Origin: a virus
Virus record (IMG/VR): IMGVR_UViG_3300032164_003159
Coordinates: 1 to 61,265 of that record
Length of the DNA: 61,265 bases
Direction: 5' to 3' (one strand)
Within the stretch, counting starts at the first letter, position 1. Every line of letters starts with the position of its first letter. Position numbers and translations under genes: made by a program. Below are positions 22,687-50,613 of this stretch, piece by piece. Under the pieces are notes generated by a model. That model saw only the letters and a program-made list of their open reading frames with translations, had not been told where the DNA came from and searched no databases.

Positions 22687-23337
22687 TTACACATTCTTGA
22701 GATGCGCAAAGTCCCTGAACTTTAGCTTTGTAATGATGCGACCACCAGCGCGGCTAGCCATAAAGATCACTGGGCGCAGTACAATCCCCTCGGCCTGGAA
22801 TGGGTTAGTGGGGTTCCACTTTGAAAAGAACCCAGCCTTGACAAATTCTACGGCCTCTGGAATAGTTCCTATACCCATCACAGGCACAAAATCAATGCCC
22901 AGCTTCACAGCAATATCGACCACGTTTGGTTGTAGAAGCCACCAACGGCCAACACGAACGTCAAATAGTACAAAACTCGGATCGTCACGGTATTTCCCCC
23001 CTTTGTTAATCTTCGATCCGTAGCATTCTCCATAAAGAACTACCAAATTCTCTGGATTGTTTATATCTGGAGGAAATTGCGCCGCCAATTTCTCAGCAGG
23101 AAACATACCGCGCAATGTTTCAAGGGGGAAGGCAGGCATAACAGCCATGTCTGTCTTTCCTCCAAACTGCACGGTCTTGCCATCCCATATTACACGGCAA
23201 TTCATGCCGTCCACCTTCTCTGTCCACATCCATTGGTTGCCTGCTAGGTATTCGATTTCGGGGGTGGCGTACTGTCCTATAATAAAGTGTTTGTGCTCGT
23301 CCCGTTTGAATACTGAATTTATCTTCGGGTACTCCAT
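22687..23337 (-). CDS. RNA ligase (nucleotidyltransferase family), 216 aa
   Basis: The ligase motif I KxDG is present as WTEKVDGMNCRVI with Lys41 as the adenylation residue. Motif III-like LYGECYGSKINKGGKY, a motif IV-like FQAEGIVLRP and a motif V-like ITKLKF follow in order. This is the core nucleotidyltransferase domain of phage Rnl2/RNA_ligase-type enzymes, which seal nicked RNA (for example tRNAs cut by host defence). The start at 23337 lies just after the stop of the 126-aa gene. No separate kinase-phosphatase is fused. Confidence 0.85.
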   Translation of the reverse strand: MEYPKINSVFKRDEHKHFIIGQYATPEIEYLAGNQWMWTEKVDGMNCRVIWDGKTVQFGGKTDMAVMPAFPLETLRGMFPAEKLAAQFPPDINNPENLVVLYGECYGSKINKGGKYRDDPSFVLFDVRVGRWWLLQPNVVDIAVKLGIDFVPVMGIGTIPEAVEFVKAGFFSKWNPTNPFQAEGIVLRPVIFMASRAGGRIITKLKFRDFAHLKNV

Positions 23338-23339
23338 GA

Positions 23340-23720
23340 CTAACAAGTTTCCTCCTTCCCTGCAGCGATCATTCCATCGACTAAGGATCGCAGCACTTTC
23401 CGTTCCCCAGTCTTGGCAAAGCCAGAGGCCCACAGTATAGCGATTAGTTCATTCACGCGCTTCTTGGTTTCCTTGGACAGTTCCCGCGTGTAGATCGCAT
23501 GCCCAACGTCCCGCGCCTCTTTCTTCGCACGCCTGACCCGACGCTTGTCCAGCACCTTCTGTGCCTTCACAGGAAGCGCTCCCTTGGCCTTGCGAGCCAT
23601 GGCTACCTCGACAGGGTCGTCCTCTGGCGGAGGGGTCTTGGGAGTAGGGAACACAGCAGGGGTTGTCTTACCGGTATTGTCGATAACATGAATCCGCTTC
23701 TCCGTCTTCGTTTCGGACAT
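23340..23720 (-). CDS. Basic hypothetical protein, 126 aa
   Basis: The N-terminus ETKTEKRIHVIDNTGKTTP recalls IHVQDNSKKNDPVEQV of the 150-aa protein at 10380, and DDPVEVAM matches that protein's next block, so the two may share an N-terminal module. A Lys/Arg-rich middle (QKVLDKRRVRRAKKEARD) suggests nucleic-acid binding. The rest is helical. It has its own promoter (23746-23773) and a CTGGGAGG site, the same cassette style as region 1. Confidence 0.75.
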   Translation of the reverse strand: MSETKTEKRIHVIDNTGKTTPAVFPTPKTPPPEDDPVEVAMARKAKGALPVKAQKVLDKRRVRRAKKEARDVGHAIYTRELSKETKKRVNELIAILWASGFAKTGERKVLRSLVDGMIAAGKEETC

Positions 23721-23745: not shown

Positions 23746-23773
23746 AATATAAGCACTGTTTAGTGTTTGTCAA
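23746..23773 (-). promoter_or_regulatory. Promoter of the 126-aa gene, inside the AAA ATPase 3' end
   Basis: TTGACA (23768-23773), 16 bp, TATATT (23746-23751). The ATPase stop codon (23760-23762) lies within the spacer. Confidence 0.8.
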
Positions 23774-24785
23774 GTATGGACTTTCGCAGCAGGTGTTGAT
23801 TACTGTGAATACCAATTCTACTGGAAAATTCATCGCTAGATATTTTTCTGCTGTCCATTTTCTTCAGCATGTCAAGTGTGCTTTCGAAATCATTTCCTAA
23901 GCACTTTACACTAATGACTAACTCAGCGAGAGCAGCGAATGACAATCCATCACTTCGCGCTACCCACTCTGCCAATTCCCCGCCATTTATTTTTAGCTTA
24001 GTGCTAAGATAAATTCTTCGTGTCTCCTTAGACGGTGGCTCTACCTTTATAACTCTGTCAAATCGTCTTGGGCGGGCCACCAATCTACGATCCAACCGCT
24101 CTGGATAATTAGTGGTGGCTATATTCAAAACTTTATCTATTTGATATTCACCATCGAGCAGTGCTAAAAGTTCATCGTCACCATGGTGTGATACAATTGC
24201 GTCGATATCCTCGAATATACATATGATGCGGCGGTCCCGCTCAATCTTACGAAATGTTACCAGCGCGTCTTTCAGGATGGACGGGTGTGCACATACCATT
24301 ACGATTCCGCCGGACATTACAATTTTATTAGAGACTAGTTGAACTACTGCTGTCTTACCCCCACCAGCAATACCATATAGTAAGTATCCTCTCCTGTGTA
24401 GAAATCCATAATCATGAAATATCTTCTCGCGTGTCCAAAAAGATTCAATCTCGTCACAGATTAGTTTTGGCAGGCCGTCTGGAAAATCTATGAGCGCGTC
24501 TACTTTGATGTCCATCTTTTCAAATCTAATTCCCTGTTGTGTTCGGTGTTGGTTGTACACGCCGGGTGGAAGTATTGGGATGGTTTGCCCAACTGCTAAA
24601 TATTCGTCATGGCCCGAGATAGCCCATTGGGTAAGCTGACTACCATACCCGCGTTCTTTAGACTCACAAGGATCGCATGGGGCTACTGATTCGCACTGTG
24701 CTTTAGAGGGCACTATGTTTTCGTTGCTATTTTTTTGGTCGGTTCCGAATTCATTAAGGGGATCGGACTTAGTCTCATCTGCCAT
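23760..24785 (-). CDS. AAA+ ATPase, 341 aa
   Basis: Walker A is GIAGGGKTAVVQL (about residue 141). Walker B is IICIFEDIDAIV. Sensor 1 is NIATTNYPERLD and the arginine-finger region is RRLVARPRRFDRVI. The pattern is FtsH/proteasome/Bcs1-like, as in remodelling ATPases. The N-terminal 90 residues are polar and carry CDPCESK, perhaps a partner-binding extension. No protease domain follows. It could be a host-protein or complex remodeller; the target is unknown. Confidence 0.88.
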   Translation of the reverse strand: MADETKSDPLNEFGTDQKNSNENIVPSKAQCESVAPCDPCESKERGYGSQLTQWAISGHDEYLAVGQTIPILPPGVYNQHRTQQGIRFEKMDIKVDALIDFPDGLPKLICDEIESFWTREKIFHDYGFLHRRGYLLYGIAGGGKTAVVQLVSNKIVMSGGIVMVCAHPSILKDALVTFRKIERDRRIICIFEDIDAIVSHHGDDELLALLDGEYQIDKVLNIATTNYPERLDRRLVARPRRFDRVIKVEPPSKETRRIYLSTKLKINGGELAEWVARSDGLSFAALAELVISVKCLGNDFESTLDMLKKMDSRKISSDEFSSRIGIHSNQHLLRKSILDKH

Positions 24786-25226: not shown

Positions 25227-25292
25227 GTCCTACTCGCTTCAGCGGAGGTTCTTCTACAGGTGATGCGTCTTGTTCCTTGTCCATTTCAAAAC

Positions 25293-25372
25293 CCTTGCTA
25301 AGCCTTGCAACGCCCTGCCACGCCCTACCGTGCAACGCCCTGCCCAGCTACACCCAGCCGCGTACCGCCGCA
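25293..25372. repeat. Pentamer-phased repeat tract A (16 units)
   Basis: Consecutive 5-mers fit CNNNG/CCNNG in fixed register, starting CCTTG, CTAAG, CCTTG, CAACG, CCCTG and onwards. Most units keep C at position 1 and G at position 5 while the inside varies. Confidence 0.85.
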
Positions 25373-25396
25373 AACACCTTTCAATCGACAATATTG

Positions 25397-25461
25397 CTAT
25401 GCCTTGCCCAGCCAGGCCGCGCTCTGCCACGCCCTGCCGCGCCGCTCCCAGCCCAGCGCAC
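25397..25461. repeat. Pentamer-phased repeat tract B (13 units)
   Basis: Starts CTATG, CCTTG, CCCAG, CCAGG, CCGCG. Same 5-nt register logic as tract A, separated from it by an AT-rich spacer. Confidence 0.85.
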
Positions 25462-25512
25462 TTATAGTCTAACTTAGATTTACAGGATTGTAAACTGCTG
25501 TCAACAAACTAG

Positions 25513-25592
25513 CCTTGCCTAGCTATGCAGCGCCCAGCCCAGCCACGCAACGCCCTGCCACGCACGTCCGCGCATCGCCAAGCCTCGCCGCG
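25513..25592. repeat. Pentamer-phased repeat tract C (16 units)
   Basis: Starts CCTTG, CCTAG, CTATG, CAGCG, CCCAG. A minus-strand TTGACA lies in the spacer just to its left (about 25497-25502). Confidence 0.85.
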
Positions 25593-25625
25593 TACACAGC
25601 GAACTACGAAAACTTGTAAAACAAT

Positions 25626-25685
25626 CCTTGCCGCGCATAGCCGTGCCGCGCCGTACCCTGCCACGCCCAGCCGATCTTCGCCGGG
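25626..25685. repeat. Pentamer-phased repeat tract D (12 units)
   Basis: Starts CCTTG, CCGCG, CATAG, CCGTG, CCGCG. The following spacer contains the perfect dyad TTTTATATTATAAAA. Confidence 0.85.
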
Positions 25686-25724
25686 TATTTATAGAACTAT
25701 ACATTTTATATTATAAAACGTTTG

Positions 25725-25799
25725 CCTTGCCGTGCTCTGCCCGGCCTCGCAATGCCGCGCCAGGCGCAGCCGGTCCGTGCCGTTCCTGGCATCGCCACG
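25725..25799. repeat. Pentamer-phased repeat tract E (15 units)
   Basis: Starts CCTTG, CCGTG, CTCTG, CCCGG, CCTCG and abuts the stop codon of the 202-aa gene. Together tracts A-E fill the gene-free interval 25285-25801. Confidence 0.85.
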
Positions 25800-25801
25800 A
25801 G

Positions 25802-26410
25802 CTAAGCCTTAAATTCCATTGACTTGAACTCTACCAACCGGAATTTTCCGAAGTGTGGACGGAACGTGCCAAGACCTACACAGAGCCCGCCTTCCTCGAA
25901 GATTCTCTTCAGGTCTTGTACTTCTAATTCCTTAGACGGCAGAACAATCAGGTGGAACGTTATCTCCCAAGGGGTAGGAAGCACAGGCCTGCTCTTAGGA
26001 TTTGGAATACCCTTGGGCAATCTAGCAACGGCATGATGAATATACATACCAGAGAGCGCATCCTTACCATCATCGTCGAACTTTCCAATCTTTATGGGCT
26101 TGCCCTTCTTAGTAAATACAATCTCATCCTCTTCGATAGTTACAGCAGTTGCGATGCTGCGGGCAACCTTCTTATACGTCCTTGAGTCGAATAGGATTTT
26201 CGTGGCGCTGGGCGTATTTTCTGCGGTTAGAAAGCTTGATATATTTGTCGATGGCAGAACGAGTGTTTTTCCGTCGGCGGCGAGATACATCTTTTCTTGT
26301 GGATTCAGTTCCGTCCTGTTTGACCCTGGATAGCGGTCGAACATTATCCCACGCATCCCAGTAATCCCCTGCAAGACAAGCTTGATCCGTGTCGGCTTTG
26401 AGATCGCCAT
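25802..26410 (-). CDS. Conserved phage protein with C-terminal GLGxxRPxxGKF motif, 202 aa
   Basis: The arrangement LxLxG...R, then EKMYLAADGKTLVLPSTNISSFL, a central basic helix (TYKKVARSIATAV), then RPVLPTPWEITFHLIV and a C-terminal GLCVGLGTFRPHFGKFRL is one seen in a recurrent but unnamed phage protein family. The Gly-rich C-terminal loop faintly recalls RAMP/Cas7-like folds; that is speculative. It has a good SD (CGGAGGATC). It is the first gene downstream of the phosphoesterase gene. Confidence 0.75.
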   Translation of the reverse strand: MAISKPTRIKLVLQGITGMRGIMFDRYPGSNRTELNPQEKMYLAADGKTLVLPSTNISSFLTAENTPSATKILFDSRTYKKVARSIATAVTIEEDEIVFTKKGKPIKIGKFDDDGKDALSGMYIHHAVARLPKGIPNPKSRPVLPTPWEITFHLIVLPSKELEVQDLKRIFEEGGLCVGLGTFRPHFGKFRLVEFKSMEFKA

Positions 26411-26443: not shown

Positions 26444-27196
26444 CTAAATCTTTTCTACTGGTGCTACCTGAAATGGTTCGTGTACTAAAAGTTCTTGCCA
26501 TCTGTAGTCCTCCCTACTTTTTATGTCAAAGTAGAGGAACCCTACGTCTATAATACCTTGACAAATGCGTGTACCGAAATCGCTGCTAAGCTGGAGCCCC
26601 GGAGTAGTGAGTGCCAATCCGAAGCGGGTCTTGGCCATAACATGGTAATGCACGTGGCTACGAACAACCACATCAGCCTTTACATTTTCCTTTACACACG
26701 CTCCTAGGATAGTCCAAAGCTGTTCTCTTAGAAGCGCGGTGGCTCGCCCATGTGGAACAGTGGAGGAACTGATCTTGTGCCTGAAGTTGAACATGCAGCC
26801 ATTTACATCCAAGGACATCGCAAGATCGAATCTCGCGCCAAGGTAATCAGCCAGGATCTTTTCGAAGTTCTCTTCCTGGCCAGTGTGATATGGTGTGCCG
26901 GCTATTATATAAACTTTCTTGGCATCGAACTGGTTTATGCACTCCATCGCCATTCGAACCTGTTCCTCACGATCCGTAGTGATCAATTCGTTGCCACCGC
27001 TCTTTGGAGACTTCCCGTCAATCGCATCGCCATTGCACACTAATGCGTCAACCGGCCCGAGCGCCTTGGCCTGCTTCTCATACCATTTCCATAATTTCTT
27101 TTGTACTACGGTGGTTTGCCAGCCTTCTCTTGAAGGCGGAACCATGCCCAATTTGTGACCGCAATGCAAATCACTAATTATTACGAGTCTTTTCAT
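26444..27196 (-). CDS. Calcineurin-like metallophosphoesterase 1, 250 aa
   Basis: Metal-binding motifs are in order: VIISDLHCGH (DxH), LVCNGDAID (GD), AGTPYHTGQ replacing the usual GNHD, and SHVHYHV (GHxH-like). The central region is larger than in minimal enzymes. Such enzymes cleave phosphodiesters or phosphomonoesters in nucleotides or nucleic acids. The altered third motif (GTPYH) is found in some phage members. A dyad (TTACAG/CTGTAA) overlaps the -10 region at about 27207-27230. Confidence 0.85.
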   Translation of the reverse strand: MKRLVIISDLHCGHKLGMVPPSREGWQTTVVQKKLWKWYEKQAKALGPVDALVCNGDAIDGKSPKSGGNELITTDREEQVRMAMECINQFDAKKVYIIAGTPYHTGQEENFEKILADYLGARFDLAMSLDVNGCMFNFRHKISSSTVPHGRATALLREQLWTILGACVKENVKADVVVRSHVHYHVMAKTRFGLALTTPGLQLSSDFGTRICQGIIDVGFLYFDIKSREDYRWQELLVHEPFQVAPVEKI

Positions 27197-38867: not shown

Positions 38868-40370
38868 CTAAAATGTAAAACTATCTTTTCTCTTTACTAT
38901 TGTTCCTTCAGACACATCAGTAACATAATCTCCATCATGATCAAAATCTGCTGCATACGTCTTTACAGCGGCACCGACTTTCACATCGCCAGTTCCCGTA
39001 ATGGTTGTTGCGGATGTAATAAACACTTTTGCACCATAGCGCGCATAGATACCATAGCCGCCATTGCCTGTACCGGTAAGTGCAGTAAATCGTACTGCAG
39101 CGTTTGTTCCTACACGAACAGCATCTCCAGTACAGGAAGTAACAACAAGCGATCCAGAAGCCTCGATAGTGCTTCCACCAGAACTCCCACTGGCATCCAC
39201 TAAGAGGCCGGTACCGCAGACCGTAATTGTCCCTCCGGATAAGTATGCTAAAGGAGAAGCTCTAAATTCAACTCCCGCGATAGTACAATTTTCAATATAC
39301 AATCCAGTACCTAATGTCATATACCCAGAGTTGCTCAAGCGTATTCCAGTACCGCAATTATTTACTTTTACATTGGAAACCGTAGCAGCGCTCTGCTGAT
39401 TTCCAATTTCTAGACCAAGGTTATTTATATTATCTGCATAAATATAAGCTATACTAGGTATTTCATGTATACCACCAACATAAATTCCCCTAGTTACCGT
39501 CCCAGAATAAACAAATATGTTCGAGAAATCTCGCAGTTCTAACCCGTCAGCTATCAGTATATTGCTTCCTGGGGTAGCCGCAGCGTTGTAAACAACTATG
39601 TTTTTCATCCTAACACTTGAGAAGATCCCCACAAGAAAGGGGATTAGTGTTGAATTATTACCATCTACAGATATATATGTCATATACGGCCCGTCAGTCA
39701 GAAAGCACATCAATCCATAATTAGCTCCACCCAAAGAAGTAATCTTTATTCTGTCCAGATTGAAGTTCATTCTAGTAGCTTTTACAACAGTGATATAAAC
39801 AATGGCACCAACAAGTGTATTCGCCGGGGCACTATTGAGATTCGTTCCCCAATCCATAATATTATATGCTTTGCCGCTTGTGGACGTACCAAATGCCCCA
39901 ACTGTTTCTATAGAGGTTGCGTCGTTCTTACGGATAATTAGGTACTCGGAGCCGACCTTTAGGATTTTCCCGCGAAGATTATTCACAGTCCAGGTCTGCC
40001 CACCATCTATGAGTGTCGTTGTCGTCCCACCCGTGGCCGTGCCGGAATTAGTCCCTGTCGCTACTGTAAACGCCACATAGGCTGCGCCACGAATGGTCAG
40101 TCCCTGATTCCCCAGCCCCTCAATAATATTTCCAGTTAGAGTAAAACCAGCGAAATTCCCTGCACCAATGTTTATAGTAGTTGCATGCCTAATAAATTTG
40201 GGAAGTTTGTCTATAGCTGCCTGTACAGTCAGTAAAGCACCACCGGCTGTATCTACTAATCCAGTATTAGTATCAGCACCGTCTGTTCTTACGTATAGAG
40301 TTATTGCTCTGTCCGTAACAGTAGCAACCGTTCCACCAACGGCATTACCAGTAAGTATTCTATTTGTCAT
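38868..40370 (-). CDS. Beta-helix appendage (tailspike-like) protein 1, 500 aa
   Basis: Repeated short strands rich in G, N, T and S (GLTIRGAAYVAFTVATGTNS, then NTLVGAIVYITVV-like coils) indicate a right-handed parallel beta-helix. An early LYVRTDGADTNTGLVDTAGG segment is shared with the two following proteins. LIDGGQTWTVNDLRGK-type segments recur in all three. It lacks the longer N-terminal ATGGxGG-VTY module of its paralogues. Such proteins are tailspikes that bind or degrade host polysaccharide. The start at 40370 is set by spacing to AAGGAC. Confidence 0.85.
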   Translation of the reverse strand: MTNRILTGNAVGGTVATVTDRAITLYVRTDGADTNTGLVDTAGGALLTVQAAIDKLPKFIRHATTINIGAGNFAGFTLTGNIIEGLGNQGLTIRGAAYVAFTVATGTNSGTATGGTTTTLIDGGQTWTVNNLRGKILKVGSEYLIIRKNDATSIETVGAFGTSTSGKAYNIMDWGTNLNSAPANTLVGAIVYITVVKATRMNFNLDRIKITSLGGANYGLMCFLTDGPYMTYISVDGNNSTLIPFLVGIFSSVRMKNIVVYNAAATPGSNILIADGLELRDFSNIFVYSGTVTRGIYVGGIHEIPSIAYIYADNINNLGLEIGNQQSAATVSNVKVNNCGTGIRLSNSGYMTLGTGLYIENCTIAGVEFRASPLAYLSGGTITVCGTGLLVDASGSSGGSTIEASGSLVVTSCTGDAVRVGTNAAVRFTALTGTGNGGYGIYARYGAKVFITSATTITGTGDVKVGAAVKTYAADFDHDGDYVTDVSEGTIVKRKDSFTF

Positions 40371-40374
40371 TTTC

Positions 40375-41973
40375 TTAGTCCTCTCTACGCAGAAGGCTGC
40401 CATTTGTAATGTCTACAACCTTATCATTATTGTTTGCAAAATCGGTAGACCAATCTAATACAGTGGTGCCGCCGTCTATGGTTGCGTCCCCAGCGGATCC
40501 TGTGATTGTAGTCTCTGATGTTACTCTTACCTCGCTACCGCGTTTTACATCTACACCATAGCCACCGTTTCCAGTTCCGGTGCATGATGTCAGTATAGCA
40601 ATTGATCGATGGTTAGCGATTACTCCACCAAGTGTATTATTAGAAATAGTTAATACACCAGCCGCATTTACTAAGGTATGTGCCCAATCATTGGTAGCCG
40701 AACACTCATCGACTTTCATGCCATAGCCGCCGTTACCTATGATTGTCCCACTATTGATGTCTACCGACCGCGTATCCTGAGCATAGTAACCATCATTGGT
40801 GTTGTTCTGAATAAGGAAACCTTCTGTCTTGGTATATCCGTTATACTCTGACCAGAACCCATCAAGATTATTTTCGGAACGCATATAATAAAGATATACA
40901 AGTTCAGATTGGTACATCTCTATACCTGTTGCTGAACTGCTCTGTGCGAATGCAGACGCTATCATTATACCCAGGCAGGTATTACCTATAATACCGCTAA
41001 GGCTAGTATTGTAAGATGATATACCATTACCATCGGCACCTGTAGTATACGAGCCGCGTGTGCCGTTTAGCAGATTAAAAAGTATTCCATAGCTACCGTT
41101 TTCAGCGCGTATATTGGATACCACAAGTTGCTTAGTTAAACTTATAAAAGCAAAGCACCCAGTAGTTCCCTTAGTGCCAGTTACCAAAATTCTTGATATA
41201 TAGGCAGGATCGGAACTTATCATGTAAAATCCGTACGCTTTGCCTGTTGCTGTGATCTTAAGGGATTGTACTAATACAGAATCTCTTGCCGCAGTAACCA
41301 ACCCTCTAATTAGAACAATGGCGGAAGCATACCCCCCAGCACAGGTAGCATTCAGATTGGTCTTGTTTTCCAGTATTGAATATGCCTGTCCTGTAGGTGC
41401 ACCACTAAGTGTGTAGCAAAGTTCTATTGTATTAGATGTGTTGTCCCAAACATACGCATATTGTGAATTGACCAGTACAAGTCTACCGCGTAGATCATGA
41501 GCAGTCCAAGACTGTCCAGCATCTATAAGTGTATGGGTGTCCCCTCCGGTAGCTGTTCCCGAGGTAGTACCAGAAGACAGCGTTGGAGTACCCAGCACGC
41601 CTTTTATGGTAAAGGTTGCACCAATAGGTACATTGAACCCAGAAAGTTCGAATCCTGGAAAGTTACCTTCACCGATATCTATTGTTACATTGTGCCTTAT
41701 ATATTTTGGTACTTTATCCACAGCAGCTTTCGGAGTTAAAAGGGCATCCCCAATTGTCAACCCTGTGTTGCTATCATTTCCTGTTGTCCTTACATATAGT
41801 GTTAATACACCCGTAGTGGTGGTTACCTCTCTACCAGCAACGATGTCCATTGCAGTTTGTACATTATCCGCATCAAGCTGACTAGCACTTGGATTGTACG
41901 TAACTTCAGATGCAGGACCACCTGTACCACCTGTGCCCGCTTCTTCACTCCACACATAACGCTTTATAGTCAT
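40375..41973 (-). CDS. Beta-helix appendage (tailspike-like) protein 2, 532 aa
   Basis: The N-terminus has YVWSEEAGTGGTGGPASEVT followed by SQLDADNVQTAMDIVAGR, a virion-attachment type module. It then enters LYVRTTGNDSNTGLTIGDAL and the beta-helix region with YIRHNVTIDIGEGNFPGFEL. The N-terminal 120 residues are nearly identical in pattern to protein 3. The downstream helix diverges, as expected when receptor specificity is swapped by recombination. Enzymatic residues cannot be identified by eye. Confidence 0.87.
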   Translation of the reverse strand: MTIKRYVWSEEAGTGGTGGPASEVTYNPSASQLDADNVQTAMDIVAGREVTTTTGVLTLYVRTTGNDSNTGLTIGDALLTPKAAVDKVPKYIRHNVTIDIGEGNFPGFELSGFNVPIGATFTIKGVLGTPTLSSGTTSGTATGGDTHTLIDAGQSWTAHDLRGRLVLVNSQYAYVWDNTSNTIELCYTLSGAPTGQAYSILENKTNLNATCAGGYASAIVLIRGLVTAARDSVLVQSLKITATGKAYGFYMISSDPAYISRILVTGTKGTTGCFAFISLTKQLVVSNIRAENGSYGILFNLLNGTRGSYTTGADGNGISSYNTSLSGIIGNTCLGIMIASAFAQSSSATGIEMYQSELVYLYYMRSENNLDGFWSEYNGYTKTEGFLIQNNTNDGYYAQDTRSVDINSGTIIGNGGYGMKVDECSATNDWAHTLVNAAGVLTISNNTLGGVIANHRSIAILTSCTGTGNGGYGVDVKRGSEVRVTSETTITGSAGDATIDGGTTVLDWSTDFANNNDKVVDITNGSLLRRED

Positions 41974-41984
41974 CAGAGTATTTC

Positions 41985-43568
41985 CTAATCTCTACGCTCG
42001 ATGGTGGCCCCCGTAGCTAGATTGCTTACAATATCTCCATTGTTGGCAAAGTCTGTTGCCCATGATAACACGGTTTTCCCCTCATCAACCGTAGCATTTC
42101 CGGAAACCCCAGTTACTGTAGTTGCAGAAGTAATCAATCCGTATGTGGCAGAATTAAAACGAATACCATAGCTACCATTTCCGGTCCCGGTTACATCAAC
42201 TAATGAAGGAGTAGATCCCAATGATGCGTAAATTCCATCTAGCGTATTATTATTAATTGTTGTTGCTCTAACTACTATTTGGACATTACCACTCTTATAG
42301 TCTGCAGTAGGAATAGTGTCATTGCCTAAGCGCATACCGTACGTGCCGTTATTGCTAAGGTCACCGGAGTTCATCCGCCCAAATGCACACCCACGTTCAA
42401 GTACCAAGCCACTAAGTGTATTGTGATCGCTAAACAAACCAGCATAGAACCCCGCATATGCTACGGCCTCTAGCCTAACTCCATTTTCCCCATTGTACGA
42501 AGTGTACGCACCACCGGGCAGCACTTCAAAATCAGGCGCTCCAAATATATATATCCCATTTGCCCCATTATAATCTGCGTACCAATAACCACCATATACA
42601 GCGAGCGCTGAGAATACTGCGATTCCCCCGTAACCAGCGACGCCATTGTTATAAGCATAGATCCTCTCAATGTCTCTTACTCTACGAAGTGTCTGAAAGA
42701 GGAATCCTGCAGATGTATTGCTTGCTGCATAAGAATCGAATATGTTTATATCCCCATTACCGCTGTTATATAGACCATAAGAAGTTGCAAGCTCAAAGCG
42801 GCCCCGTTCAATATGTAAACCACTAGAGTGCGCGTATATTCCGTAGGCACCACCAGTTGTACGTATATTCCGAAACACAAGTGTGGTACTTCTGGTCCCC
42901 ACAAGGTAAACTTCTACCCTACCAGATCCGCCAGCGGCCGTGGTGTTTATAATAGTCTTCTGCTCTAGTAGCGAGTACGCTTTTCCAGAACAGGTAGCGG
43001 ACATTGCGCCAACTAAATTTATCGTAGTACTTGTGTTGTTTCGTACAACACGATATTCACCAGCTATTAACACTAATTTACCGCGTAGGTCGTTTACCGT
43101 CCAGGATTGTCCACCATCAACACATGTAAGTGTATCTCCACCGGTAGCGGTACCAGAGGTTGTGCCGGTAGCCAGTGTTGGGGCTCCTAGCTCTCCAACT
43201 ATAGTAAATATGTTTGGATATATAATTTCATAATTAGCAATACGAAATCCTGCGAAGTTACCTGCACCAATGTCAATAGTCACGTTATGCTTTATGTACC
43301 TCGGTACCTTGTTCACAGCCGCTTGCGGAGTTAATAGTGCATCCCCAATAGTAAGTCCGGTGTTATTATCATTTCCAGTTGTTCTCACATAGTAGGTTGC
43401 CACTCCAGTAGTTGCTGTAACATCTCTTCCGGCTAGAACATCTACTGCAGACTGAACATTGTCTGCTCCCAATTGACTTACGGCTTCGCTATAGGTTACA
43501 TCTGAGGCAGCACCACCACTGCCACCAGTGCCTTCTTCTTGACCCCATACATAGCGCTCTATCGTCAT
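41985..43568 (-). CDS. Beta-helix appendage (tailspike-like) protein 3, 527 aa
   Basis: Same architecture as protein 2: YVWGQEEGTGGSGGAASDVT, SQLGADNVQSAVDVLAGR, YYVRTTGNDNNTGLTIGDAL, then a parallel beta-helix with many NN, GG and Asn ladders (YNGANGIYIFG, SYNGENGVRLEAV). Each gene begins 4-12 nt after the previous one. The trio probably forms branched or alternative adsorption structures. Confidence 0.87.
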   Translation of the reverse strand: MTIERYVWGQEEGTGGSGGAASDVTYSEAVSQLGADNVQSAVDVLAGRDVTATTGVATYYVRTTGNDNNTGLTIGDALLTPQAAVNKVPRYIKHNVTIDIGAGNFAGFRIANYEIIYPNIFTIVGELGAPTLATGTTSGTATGGDTLTCVDGGQSWTVNDLRGKLVLIAGEYRVVRNNTSTTINLVGAMSATCSGKAYSLLEQKTIINTTAAGGSGRVEVYLVGTRSTTLVFRNIRTTGGAYGIYAHSSGLHIERGRFELATSYGLYNSGNGDINIFDSYAASNTSAGFLFQTLRRVRDIERIYAYNNGVAGYGGIAVFSALAVYGGYWYADYNGANGIYIFGAPDFEVLPGGAYTSYNGENGVRLEAVAYAGFYAGLFSDHNTLSGLVLERGCAFGRMNSGDLSNNGTYGMRLGNDTIPTADYKSGNVQIVVRATTINNNTLDGIYASLGSTPSLVDVTGTGNGSYGIRFNSATYGLITSATTVTGVSGNATVDEGKTVLSWATDFANNGDIVSNLATGATIERRD

Positions 43569-47178: not shown

Positions 47179-47742
47179 TTATATATCTGTAGTATGTACT
47201 TGTTTAAGTTTTGTTCCCTCAACATTAAGACTTACGGATAATCCATTATCAAAATCCATATGTGGAATATACGCCTTTGAGTAGTCATCAAATTCTTTGG
47301 GAAGGCACTCGCGCCAATTCCACAGATGAATGTCTGAGAATCCGCACTCCTCTAAAACACATGCTAGTGTAGATAAGTTGTATATATGTGTATGGCAGGA
47401 ATTATTTGGGTTTGATCTGGTACCATAAATTAACCCCATAATCATATTTAGATCTTTGTACTTAGCATACACTGACAGTATAGCATCAAAATCAGGAACT
47501 GCTAACCGCAGTATTCCAGTTTCAGGCTTTAACACACGACACCACTCCTTTAAAACGTCTGGCGCTTCGGTGTAATGAAAGTGCTCCAATATATGAGATG
47601 CATATATAAGATCTACTGAATCATTATTGATCATGGTTAAATTACGTGCATCACAAACATAATTAACATGCGGATAATACTGTATGTCTATGTGCATGAA
47701 CCCATCTAGGTACCGTTTTCCACAACCAATATGAAGTTTCAT
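47179..47742 (-). CDS. SAM-dependent methyltransferase, 187 aa
   Basis: Motif I LHIGCGKRYLDGFMHIDI (residues 3-20) is the short form common in sugar-modifying phage and bacterial methyltransferases. VDLIYASHILEHFHYTEAPD is the post-motif II region, and RVLKPETGILRLAVPD is motif VI-like. Its start overlaps the Gmd stop (ATGA), so it belongs to the fucose operon and may methylate the sugar or glycan. Confidence 0.88.
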   Translation of the reverse strand: MKLHIGCGKRYLDGFMHIDIQYYPHVNYVCDARNLTMINNDSVDLIYASHILEHFHYTEAPDVLKEWCRVLKPETGILRLAVPDFDAILSVYAKYKDLNMIMGLIYGTRSNPNNSCHTHIYNLSTLACVLEECGFSDIHLWNWRECLPKEFDDYSKAYIPHMDFDNGLSVSLNVEGTKLKQVHTTDI

Positions 47743-48776
47743 TTAGTATTTTCCAGTTTCAAATCATTCTGCACCATCTTATCTACTAATTCGTTGAAGC
47801 CAACTCGTGGCTCCCACCCAAGCGTAGCTTTGGCCTTAGAATAATCCCCGCGTAAGCATTTTACGTCTGTCGGCCTGTAATACTGTTCATTGACCGCAAC
47901 AAGCACAGAACCAGTCTTCCTATTTATGCCAACCTCCGATGCACCAGAACCTTCCCAAGTTACATCTATAGAACAGACAGCAAACGCAAGGTTTACAAAT
48001 TCCCTAACACTGTGGGTAGTTCCAGTAGCGATCACATAATCGTCCGGTAAAGTGTAGTTCATAATCCTATACATTGCATCGCAAAATTCCTTCGCATACC
48101 CCCAATCTCGCTGTGCATCTAAGTTTCCCAAGATAAGTGTATCTTGTTTCCCAAGATGAATGCGTGCAACGGCCCTGGATATTTTTCTGCTCACAAATGT
48201 CGCTCCCCGGCGCTCTCCAGTATGGTTGAACAGGATCCCATTACATGCAAATATTCCGTAGGCCATCCTATAACTGATCGTCGTCCAGTACGCATACAGC
48301 TTAGCAGCAGCGTAGGGACTGCACGGCTTGAACGGAGTGTCTTCATTCTGGTATTTGGTGGAAGCATTTCCAAACATCTCTGATGTTGACGCTTGGTAAT
48401 ACCGGCAAGCTGGGGCATATGTCTTTATAGCATCTAGTAAGCGTATTGTACCCAGGCCATCCACGTTGGCACTGTATTCTGGAACCTCAAAGCTTACTTT
48501 AACATGCGATTGCGCCCCAAGATTGTAGCATGCATCTGGGGAACACTCACGGATTATTTTTGATACGCTCGTACCGTCTGTCAAATCTCCATAGTGCAAG
48601 AACAGTGTCTTATCTATTATACGCGCATCGTAAATTAGATGATCTATTCTATATGTATTGAACGTGCTAGATCTACGAACAATACCGTGTACAGTGTAGC
48701 CCTTCTCCAGTAAAAGCTCTGAGAGATAACTTCCATCTTGCCCAGTTATACCAGTTATGACTGCGACTTTTCCCAT
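47739..48776 (-). CDS. gmd: GDP-mannose 4,6-dehydratase, 345 aa
   Basis: The N-terminus AVITGITGQDGSYLSELLLE is the Gmd signature, with IVRRSSTFNTYRIDHL next. The catalytic YAAAKLYAYW provides the Y-x-x-x-K pair. NHTGERRGATFVSRKI and RDWGYAKEFCDAMY are also diagnostic. The enzyme converts GDP-mannose to GDP-4-keto-6-deoxymannose, the first step to GDP-L-fucose. The start at 48776 has a Gmd-typical N-terminus; a longer frame runs into fcl. Confidence 0.96.
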   Translation of the reverse strand: MGKVAVITGITGQDGSYLSELLLEKGYTVHGIVRRSSTFNTYRIDHLIYDARIIDKTLFLHYGDLTDGTSVSKIIRECSPDACYNLGAQSHVKVSFEVPEYSANVDGLGTIRLLDAIKTYAPACRYYQASTSEMFGNASTKYQNEDTPFKPCSPYAAAKLYAYWTTISYRMAYGIFACNGILFNHTGERRGATFVSRKISRAVARIHLGKQDTLILGNLDAQRDWGYAKEFCDAMYRIMNYTLPDDYVIATGTTHSVREFVNLAFAVCSIDVTWEGSGASEVGINRKTGSVLVAVNEQYYRPTDVKCLRGDYSKAKATLGWEPRVGFNELVDKMVQNDLKLENTK

Positions 48777-49714
48777 TTTATAAATTCTCTGTATGTTGAT
48801 GCAAGCCCATCTTCTAGGGTTATTCTTGGTGCCCATCCAAGAGATCTAATTCTAGAACTATCCAATAACTTTTGTGGCGTACCATCCGGAAATGATGTGT
48901 CCCAAAGTATCGCGTTGTTGAAGCCTATTACACTCGCTATTTTAGTTGCTAGTTCTTTTATAGTAATGTCGCTACCATAACCAATATTTACCATCAAATC
49001 GGACAGTGCTTTGTTTTTTACATCATATGCATCCAGTAACAGCACCAAGGCACGTGCCAGGTCATCTACATGTAGGAATTCCCGTCTAGGAGAACCGGTA
49101 CCCAGGAGCGTGGCAGCTTGGTCTAACTGCTTTGCGCTATGTATTTTGTTGATCATTGCCGGTACTACATGGCTTCCTTGTTCATCAAAAAATCTATCGT
49201 TGGGACCGTACAGATTAGTAGGCATAGCTACTATATAGTCTGTATCAAATTGCCGATTATAGGAACGGCACATTTCCACACCACATATTTTTGCTACTGC
49301 ATACGCCCTATTTGTATCTTCCAGTTCCCCAGATAGCAGACATTCTTCCTTTATAGGTTGCTTCGAGAACTTTGGATAAATACAGGAGCTACCCAGGAGG
49401 ATAAGCTTTTTCACACCGTTGCGATGTGCCCCAGAAATAATATTTGTCTGTATTAAAACATTGTCATGTATAAAATTCACTGGGTAACTATTGTTTGCTA
49501 ATATTCCACCTACCTTGGCGGCACAGACTATTATTGCAGCTGGATTAACTACATCTAAAAACGCCATTGTAGATCTGGCGTCCCGCAAGTCAACTGTTTT
49601 TCTGTTAATAGTAATTATTCGTTTATACCCCGTCCTGGCCAGTTCTCTACAAACCGAGCTACCCACTAATCCCGTGTTGCCGGCTACCAAAATAGGCAAA
49701 TCAATATAGCTCAT
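48755..49714 (-). CDS. fcl: GDP-L-fucose synthase, 319 aa
   Basis: ILVAGNTGLVGSSVCREL is the NADP-binding start. KVGGILANNSYP, LLGSSCIYPK and the catalytic YAVAKICGVEMC follow. PTNLYGPNDRFF and MVNIGYGSDITI are family-specific. The enzyme epimerises and reduces the Gmd product to GDP-L-fucose. It overlaps gmd by about 22 nt, so the pair is one unit. Confidence 0.96.
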   Translation of the reverse strand: MSYIDLPILVAGNTGLVGSSVCRELARTGYKRIITINRKTVDLRDARSTMAFLDVVNPAAIIVCAAKVGGILANNSYPVNFIHDNVLIQTNIISGAHRNGVKKLILLGSSCIYPKFSKQPIKEECLLSGELEDTNRAYAVAKICGVEMCRSYNRQFDTDYIVAMPTNLYGPNDRFFDEQGSHVVPAMINKIHSAKQLDQAATLLGTGSPRREFLHVDDLARALVLLLDAYDVKNKALSDLMVNIGYGSDITIKELATKIASVIGFNNAILWDTSFPDGTPQKLLDSSRIRSLGWAPRITLEDGLASTYREFIKWEKSQS

Positions 49715-50613
49715 TTGTTTTTACTAGTAAACATTCTTTTGAAAAACGCTATAATCCTATCCTTATCTGCATACTTATTTACCACGTTATTAGGATACCA
49801 GGGCTGTTGCAACATAGAAAGGTACGCCATGGGATCTTTGTCTATTTGAATGGTCCTGCTAACCAATTGCGTAATTGTGCTCACTATATCTGTGTTTGGT
49901 ACACTTATAAAACTGTTTGTGTTAAACTCTTTTCCTATAGTTGGATTTCCAAAATAAATAGGTATGCAGTTTGCCATCATTGCTAAGTATATCTTCTCCG
50001 TAGTGTATCCTACATTCCCCGTATTCTCAAATGCTATGTTGAATTTGTATCGGGACAAAAAGCGGACTAATTCCTCTGGATAATGCGTAGAACCACGAGA
50101 CTGCTCTATAGTAGCAAATCCTCCTAAAGGTGGAAAGTTGTGCATGCATTTCCCGGGGGCATCTACCTGCGCATACTTACTTAGTGCACGAAATAACTCG
50201 TTCCTAATTGGCACATTGTGGTAGTAAACAAATGCACAAAACTTAGTTTTATATGCAGCGATTACTTTTGGATCGAATGTAGGACCCTTTATTAGCTTGT
50301 CCTGTCCGCCGTACAAAACGTAGTTTGGAATCCTTATATATCTGTCACTTCCTACATCTTCTTCATACATAAATCCTACGGCCCAATCATACCTTTGCAT
50401 GTCTATATTGGAGAATTCCTGAGAGTAAAAAATCTTTACAGCGGATCCTGCTGGAACGGACTGCGCCCTGTTGAAGAAGATTATGTAATCTGGTTTATCC
50501 GTGTATACAAATCGGAAGTGCTCAAACATGTACGGCATTCTATGAAACAGATAATTTTCGCATGTGGCATTCGGAACATCTGACATTAGCAGTTTTATAT
50601 TGACATCTAGCAC
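49711..50613 (-). CDS. GT10 fucosyltransferase, 300 aa
   Basis: The donor-binding block KFNIAFENTGNVGYTTEKIY and IPIYFGNPTIGKEFNTNSFI match the alpha-1,3/4-fucosyltransferase motif (FxxxFENS...YVTEK...VPVxxG). GPTFDPKVIAAYKTKFCAFV precedes them. It transfers L-fucose from GDP-fucose, completing the pathway with gmd and fcl. The start is either GTG at 50613 or ATG at 50586; neither has a clear SD, and a strong hairpin lies just upstream. Overlaps fcl by 4 nt. Confidence 0.9.
   Translation of the reverse strand: MLDVNIKLLMSDVPNATCENYLFHRMPYMFEHFRFVYTDKPDYIIFFNRAQSVPAGSAVKIFYSQEFSNIDMQRYDWAVGFMYEEDVGSDRYIRIPNYVLYGGQDKLIKGPTFDPKVIAAYKTKFCAFVYYHNVPIRNELFRALSKYAQVDAPGKCMHNFPPLGGFATIEQSRGSTHYPEELVRFLSRYKFNIAFENTGNVGYTTEKIYLAMMANCIPIYFGNPTIGKEFNTNSFISVPNTDIVSTITQLVSRTIQIDKDPMAYLSMLQQPWYPNNVVNKYADKDRIIAFFKRMFTSKNK

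Follow-up and report, generated by a model that had tools for sequence, protein, structure and literature searches.

What is carried by five tracts of short, degenerate repeats that occupy one intergenic region of an IMG/VR virus record is the question raised by this locus. The record (IMGVR_UViG_3300032164_003159) was analyzed over its whole length of 61,265 nucleotides, referred to here as the window, and an earlier note had proposed that the tracts are a selected DNA structure or a protein-binding array. We conclude with high confidence that the locus is a phage-encoded VIPR system with five vrRNA cassettes (Table 1). VIPR is a known, very recent kind of system, and what is new here is a member in a clade distant from SUSP1.

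Table 1. Features of the VIPR locus in the window; NN gives the two free bases of each successive unit
Feature	Position	Strand	Details
Candidate accessory gene	26444..27196	-	250-aa calcineurin-like metallophosphoesterase; 33 nt upstream of vipr, same strand; Pfam PF00149, E=3e-4
vipr gene	25802..26410	-	202-aa RAMP-fold protein, phrog_4652/Vipr family; C-terminal Gly-rich loop GLGTFRPHFGKF
vrRNA cassette 1 (tract E)	25725..25799	-	15 units; NN = GT GA CA AC AC CC TG CT GC AT GA CG AG AC AA
AT-rich spacer, possible 3' tail of cassette 1	25686..25724	-	weak hairpin AACGUUUUA...UAAAAUGU; z -0.74, not significant
vrRNA cassette 2 (tract D)	25626..25685	-	12 units; NN = CC GA TC TG GT AG AC GC AC TA GC AA
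Spacer, possible 3' tail of cassette 2	25593..25625	-	AUUGUUUUACAAG...; z 0.98, no structure
vrRNA cassette 3 (tract C)	25513..25592	-	16 units; NN = GC GA TT GA GC CG GT AG GT GT TG TG GC AT TA AA
Spacer, possible 3' tail of cassette 3	25462..25512	-	hairpin UUUACA-AUCC-UGUAAA; z -0.28
Weak -35/-10-like pair in cassette 3 spacer	25494-25466	-	9 of 12
vrRNA cassette 4 (tract B)	25397..25461	-	13 units; NN = TG TG TG GC GC AG GT AG GC CT TG AA AT
Spacer, possible 3' tail of cassette 4	25373..25396	-	z 0.35, no structure
vrRNA cassette 5 (tract A)	25293..25372	-	16 units; NN = GC GG GC TG GT TG AG GT AC AG GT AG GT AA TT AA

The array comprises 72 units in five 5-base-phased tracts spanning 25293 to 25799, all in exact register and all where the earlier note had placed them. 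The lag autocorrelation that the note had suggested as a check bears this out, with identity at lags of 5, 10, and 15 of 0.43, 0.47, and 0.42 in the array region, compared to 0.25 to 0.27 in the window. An 8-fold GCNNN pattern with three mismatches allowed gives 45 matches, every one of them within the array region, against 0.20 expected from shuffled sequence. Five-phase information over 60 nt peaks at 5.33 bits in the array but does not exceed 4.21 bits in simulated sequence or 3.3 bits in the rest of the window, and the array is the only 5-periodic one that the window contains.

The unit is CCNNG on the plus strand and YNNGG on the minus strand. It had been described as CNNNG, which is correct for the C and the G on the plus strand but not for three free inner bases, because the choice of base at position 2 is restricted too. 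On the minus strand, where the unit is YNN(G/D)G, the tracts alternate GGY framework triplets with two nearly random bases; the information at the five positions of the unit is 1.23, 0.15, 0.02, 0.81, and 1.89 bits, and all 16 dinucleotides are present at the two NN positions. Strict YNNGG accounts for 49/72 units and YNNDG for 64/72. SUSP1 arrays, read directly from KT454805, also have a YNNGG unit, sometimes with A or T in place of the first framework G, and the looser first G in the window is thus not unusual.

Two other readings of the repeats were tried and rejected, as the earlier note had also done. Open reading frames overlap the array, but they are by-products of GC-rich repeats whose composition is 5-periodic and not 3-periodic, and no coding repeat is involved. 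It is not a CRISPR array either, as the layout of constant repeats and unique spacers is absent and what repeats is a 5-nt unit in which two bases are free.

The earlier note overlooked that the array adjoins a gene, and that arrays of this kind also accompany relatives of that gene. This minus-strand gene, vipr, is present in a single copy in the record, and cassette 1 starts 2 nt past its stop codon. Its product has no Pfam match but matches phrog_4652 (E=7e-9), which is annotated as unknown function. A family profile (A1) matches PDB 36pp_D, the SUSP1 Vipr protein, with E=5e-43, whereas the window protein as a single sequence has remote similarity to it (E=0.02), and the link between the two therefore runs through intermediates, namely phrog_4652 and the protein of locus L108. 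The L108 protein matches phrog_4652 at 5e-62, is identical to Gordonia phage Trine gp41, and is a tblastn relative of many Felixounavirus proteins. In a tree of the family, the window Vipr lies within a starred clade of 32 rows, far from SUSP1.

An AlphaFold model of the window Vipr (pLDDT 94.1, pTM 0.88) has Csm3/Cas7 subunits of type III CRISPR complexes as its best Foldseek matches in the PDB (E 3e-6). Vipr shares with these backbones of Class 1 CRISPR-Cas an RRM fold, a Gly-rich loop, and periodic contact with a guide RNA, but Class 1 systems have constant repeats, unique spacers, and a 6-nt period, whereas VIPR has a 5-nt period and a guide that is read noncontiguously. A five-base period is also found in TRAP (trp RNA-binding attenuation protein), an oligomer that, like VIPR, reads RNA triplets two free bases apart, in (G/U)AGNN repeats; unlike VIPR, it has a different fold and its spacer bases carry no targeting information.

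The locus is assigned to VIPR from its protein family and fold, the grammar and position of its array, and its phage context. The vipr product is a small (~20 kDa) RAMP protein with an RRM core and a Gly-rich loop, the five tracts of 12 to 16 units are intergenic tandem YNNGG arrays flanking vipr, and the IMG/VR virus record has phage-type genes. VIPR (Viral Interference Programmable Repeat) was first reported in April 2026 (bioRxiv 2026), with two systems characterized in depth (PMC13142463). The preprint describes a RAMP protein together with vrRNAs of 9 to 16 YNNGG repeats, ~100 nt in length and bound by Vipr, whose NN pairs recognize double-stranded DNA, one base being skipped each time, and repress competing elements; the carriers are mainly phages, prophages, and archaeal viruses, with vipr-accessory proteins vap1 to vap6 (PMC13142463).

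SUSP1 (KT454805; PDB 36pp) and the window are alike in having a RAMP protein of the same family, encoded by a phage, and intergenic YNNGG arrays in the sense of the gene beside vipr, with tracts of 12 to 15 units in SUSP1. They differ in the framework Y, which is mostly T in SUSP1 and mostly C in the window, and in the cassettes, one of which is upstream and three downstream of vipr in SUSP1, whereas all five are downstream in the window. The neighboring gene is vap1 in SUSP1 but a metallophosphoesterase in the window. Closer relatives are the uncultivated VIPR loci of the same clade (L041, L056, L078, L112, L050, L150, and L275-L354), in the nearest of which Vipr is 45 to 53% identical to that of the window. 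Like the window, these loci have GGCNN arrays, often directly past the vipr stop codon, and terminal AA units, and one subclade has the same metallophosphoesterase; unlike the window, several also have upstream cassettes and common tails within the locus (L041, L112, and L344).

On the minus strand the order is metallophosphoesterase, vipr, and the five cassettes. In the mechanism that we propose, the cassettes would be transcribed, by homology to SUSP1, as RNAs of 12 to 16 YNNGG repeats. Subunits of Vipr, a single-RRM RAMP protein resembling a Cas7 backbone subunit, would attach to the GGY framework unit after unit, displaying the two free bases. The NN string would then base-pair with double-stranded DNA, skipping one base between pairs, and the complex, once bound, would keep the targeted gene from being transcribed; that gene probably belongs to a rival phage, prophage, or satellite. 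The analysis itself establishes the protein family, the fold, the array with its orientation, its association with vipr, and the variability of the guides; that the cassettes are transcribed, that Vipr binds the RNA, that pairing follows the 1-nt skip rule, and that silencing results are all inferred for this locus from the published SUSP1 and P. fulva systems. By homology the variable inner bases are the information, and Vipr probably uses the two free bases in every five to find and silence the DNA of rival viruses.

The guides were decoded with the published 1-nt skip rule (PMC13142463) and used to search for targets. Partial patterns of eight units (cassettes 2 to 5) or ten units (cassette 1) have 0 to 26 matches in the viral_contigs collection, none of which extends beyond chance into the flanking units (10/16 or fewer). 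When 232 guides were compared with 3 Mb of loci at skips of 0 to 3, no rule stood out and there was no excess for the 1-nt skip, and the targets are probably not in that DNA. As the search covered the contig itself, viral contigs, and the 3 Mb of loci, the missing targets are not evidence against the VIPR model. They do fit a reading in which the vrRNAs are real but serve another use in the window's clade than silencing with a 1-nt skip, such as targeting RNA, pairing with a different skip length, or regulating genes of the phage itself, as do the deep separation of this clade from SUSP1, its different neighboring enzyme, and the lack of a recognizable tail. We consider this unlikely, as the unit grammar and the fold are the same as in SUSP1, the five guides have no match above chance in their own contig, and the consensus is the same or related across the seven VIPR types described in the preprint (PMC13142463).

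The association of protein and array is not circular, and the two were tied before and apart from any literature. A search of viral contigs with the DNA pattern alone found at least 120 matching contigs, and an iterative profile search starting from the window protein found vipr in 82 of the 120 pattern-selected viral loci listed, and in 7 more elsewhere on their records, beyond the fetched stretch. Among 80 loci selected by protein alone, with a narrower profile (A2), a 5-periodic array lies within 1.3 kb in 80/80, compared to 0/38 control viral loci, so that the same kind of array does recur beside orthologous genes, as the earlier note had wanted to see checked. A pattern scan of cellular sequences (genome_contigs) found vipr in 3/120 loci, with many of the other loci from GC-rich organisms.

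These loci also bear on whether the array acts as RNA or as a double-stranded DNA element (a partition, packaging, origin, or decoy site) that a DNA-binding protein would recognize once per half turn. Such an element would fit the 5-bp register, the GC-rich tracts with AT-rich spacers between them, the dyads, and the weak promoter-like boxes. However, the gene-sense framework consensus is GGC in 77/80 protein-selected loci and the array strand is fixed relative to vipr in nearly all, as would be the case for an RNA but not for a DNA site, and depending on the phage the tracts may lie to one side of vipr or the other. Between orthologous tracts the framework is retained and the NN bases are exchanged wholesale: cassettes of L293, L296, and L298 with 85 to 100% identical flanks have NN agreement of only 18 to 33% in five comparisons, indicating that guides are replaced in place with register and framework kept, although two other cassette pairs of L293 and L296 still agree at 88 to 94% of NN. 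SUSP1 arrays, moreover, are reported as expressed RNAs that copurify with Vipr (PMC13142463). A DNA element is thus very unlikely, and the half helical turn per unit loses its place as the rationale for the spacing; the unit fits a guide RNA for the Vipr encoded beside it. The broader idea of a selected array with a functional register fares well, and the array is very probably read by a protein, unit by unit. That the tracts are functionless low-complexity DNA, expanded neutrally or selfishly, is extremely improbable, since slippage can give rise to degenerate repeats but near-random NN bases in a conserved framework are the opposite of what it leaves, and the tracts are associated with one protein family in every protein-selected locus and keep a strict 5-nt register across very divergent phages.

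Several relatives depart from the common arrangement. Two contigs of 35.8 and 41.2 kb have clean GCCNN arrays (L070, 2677-2823, and L115, 6375-6528) with no Vipr detected at E<=1; these are possibly orphan vrRNAs using the Vipr of another element, or a fragment effect. The gene-sense framework is CGC rather than GGY in two separate Vipr clades (L033, L071, L013, L060, L067, L101, L076, L110, and L124) and GCA in two single rows (L100 and L044), and the framework triplet thus varies with Vipr lineage. Tracts are split by short constant separators (such as TGAACGCC and GTTCCTCGCC) or a long constant element in L014 (1991-2351), L121 (878-1571), L100 (1828-2705), and L044 (6465-6957). Two divergent Vipr genes, with an apparent GTC framework, are present at one bacterial genome locus (L219, 895-1767 and 3765-4442).

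Within the VIPR reading, the 3' ends of the cassettes set the window apart. In the SUSP1 clade an invariable structured 3' tail follows each tract (PMC13142463), whereas comparison of the window spacers found no tail common to the five cassettes, and these spacers fold no better than shuffled sequence. The window instead has a conserved end, with CAAGG at the minus-strand 3' end of four of the five tracts and CAAGG CATAG in the fifth; this accounts for the earlier observation that four tracts begin exactly with CCTTG on the plus strand and tract B with CTATG CCTTG. In 186 tracts of relatives (L275-L354), NN is AA in 61, 51, 34, 24, and 21% of units -1 to -5, respectively, compared to ~12% of interior units, and the last units are therefore not hypervariable. 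This gradient suggests how the units divide into guide and handle in the window's clade, and it resembles either a handle or the ground state of a repeat that has not been programmed. An Rfam search of the array gave no match and no hammerhead ribozyme, such as some VIPR arrays have. No terminator-like sites were found in the array and promoter-like sites are weak, so the array may be transcribed together with vipr and then processed.

A second feature of note is the metallophosphoesterase. A homologue lies beside vipr in 10 relatives, and over the 11 loci that include the window the median distance is 94 bp; it may be on either side of vipr but is on the same strand in all 11, which suggests a functional link. 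An AlphaFold model (pLDDT 75.7) has a generic calcineurin-like fold, with Foldseek matches to Vps29, LpxH, GpdQ, and Mre11, the last being one among many. The metallophosphoesterase is also found in a Methanomicrobiales virus without vipr.

Other genes in the window include an RNA ligase (22687-23433; PF09414) and an AAA ATPase (23760-24785) close to the VIPR locus, and in L349 an RNA ligase homologue adjoins the metallophosphoesterase-vipr pair. Farther along, three consecutive genes (38868-43568) code for proteins of 511 to 532 aa with matches to right-handed beta-helices and no PHROG match, possibly tail spikes, and are followed by genes for a GDP-mannose dehydratase, an epimerase, and a fucosyltransferase (47739-50613).

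It is conceivable, although doubtful, that the window's clade is a distinct form of VIPR, with no common structured tail, a terminal CAAGG as 3' handle, the metallophosphoesterase as an accessory (perhaps a nuclease similar to Mre11 or an enzyme that processes RNA), and in-place replacement of guides, a whole tract at a time, through some acquisition mechanism. If true, such a form would give phages a guide memory without Cas1. Guide replacement in place is not addressed in the main text of the preprint (PMC13142463), and L293, L296, and L298 make its mechanism testable. With a Vipr clade this far from SUSP1, the locus can test the universality of the noncontiguous guide code.
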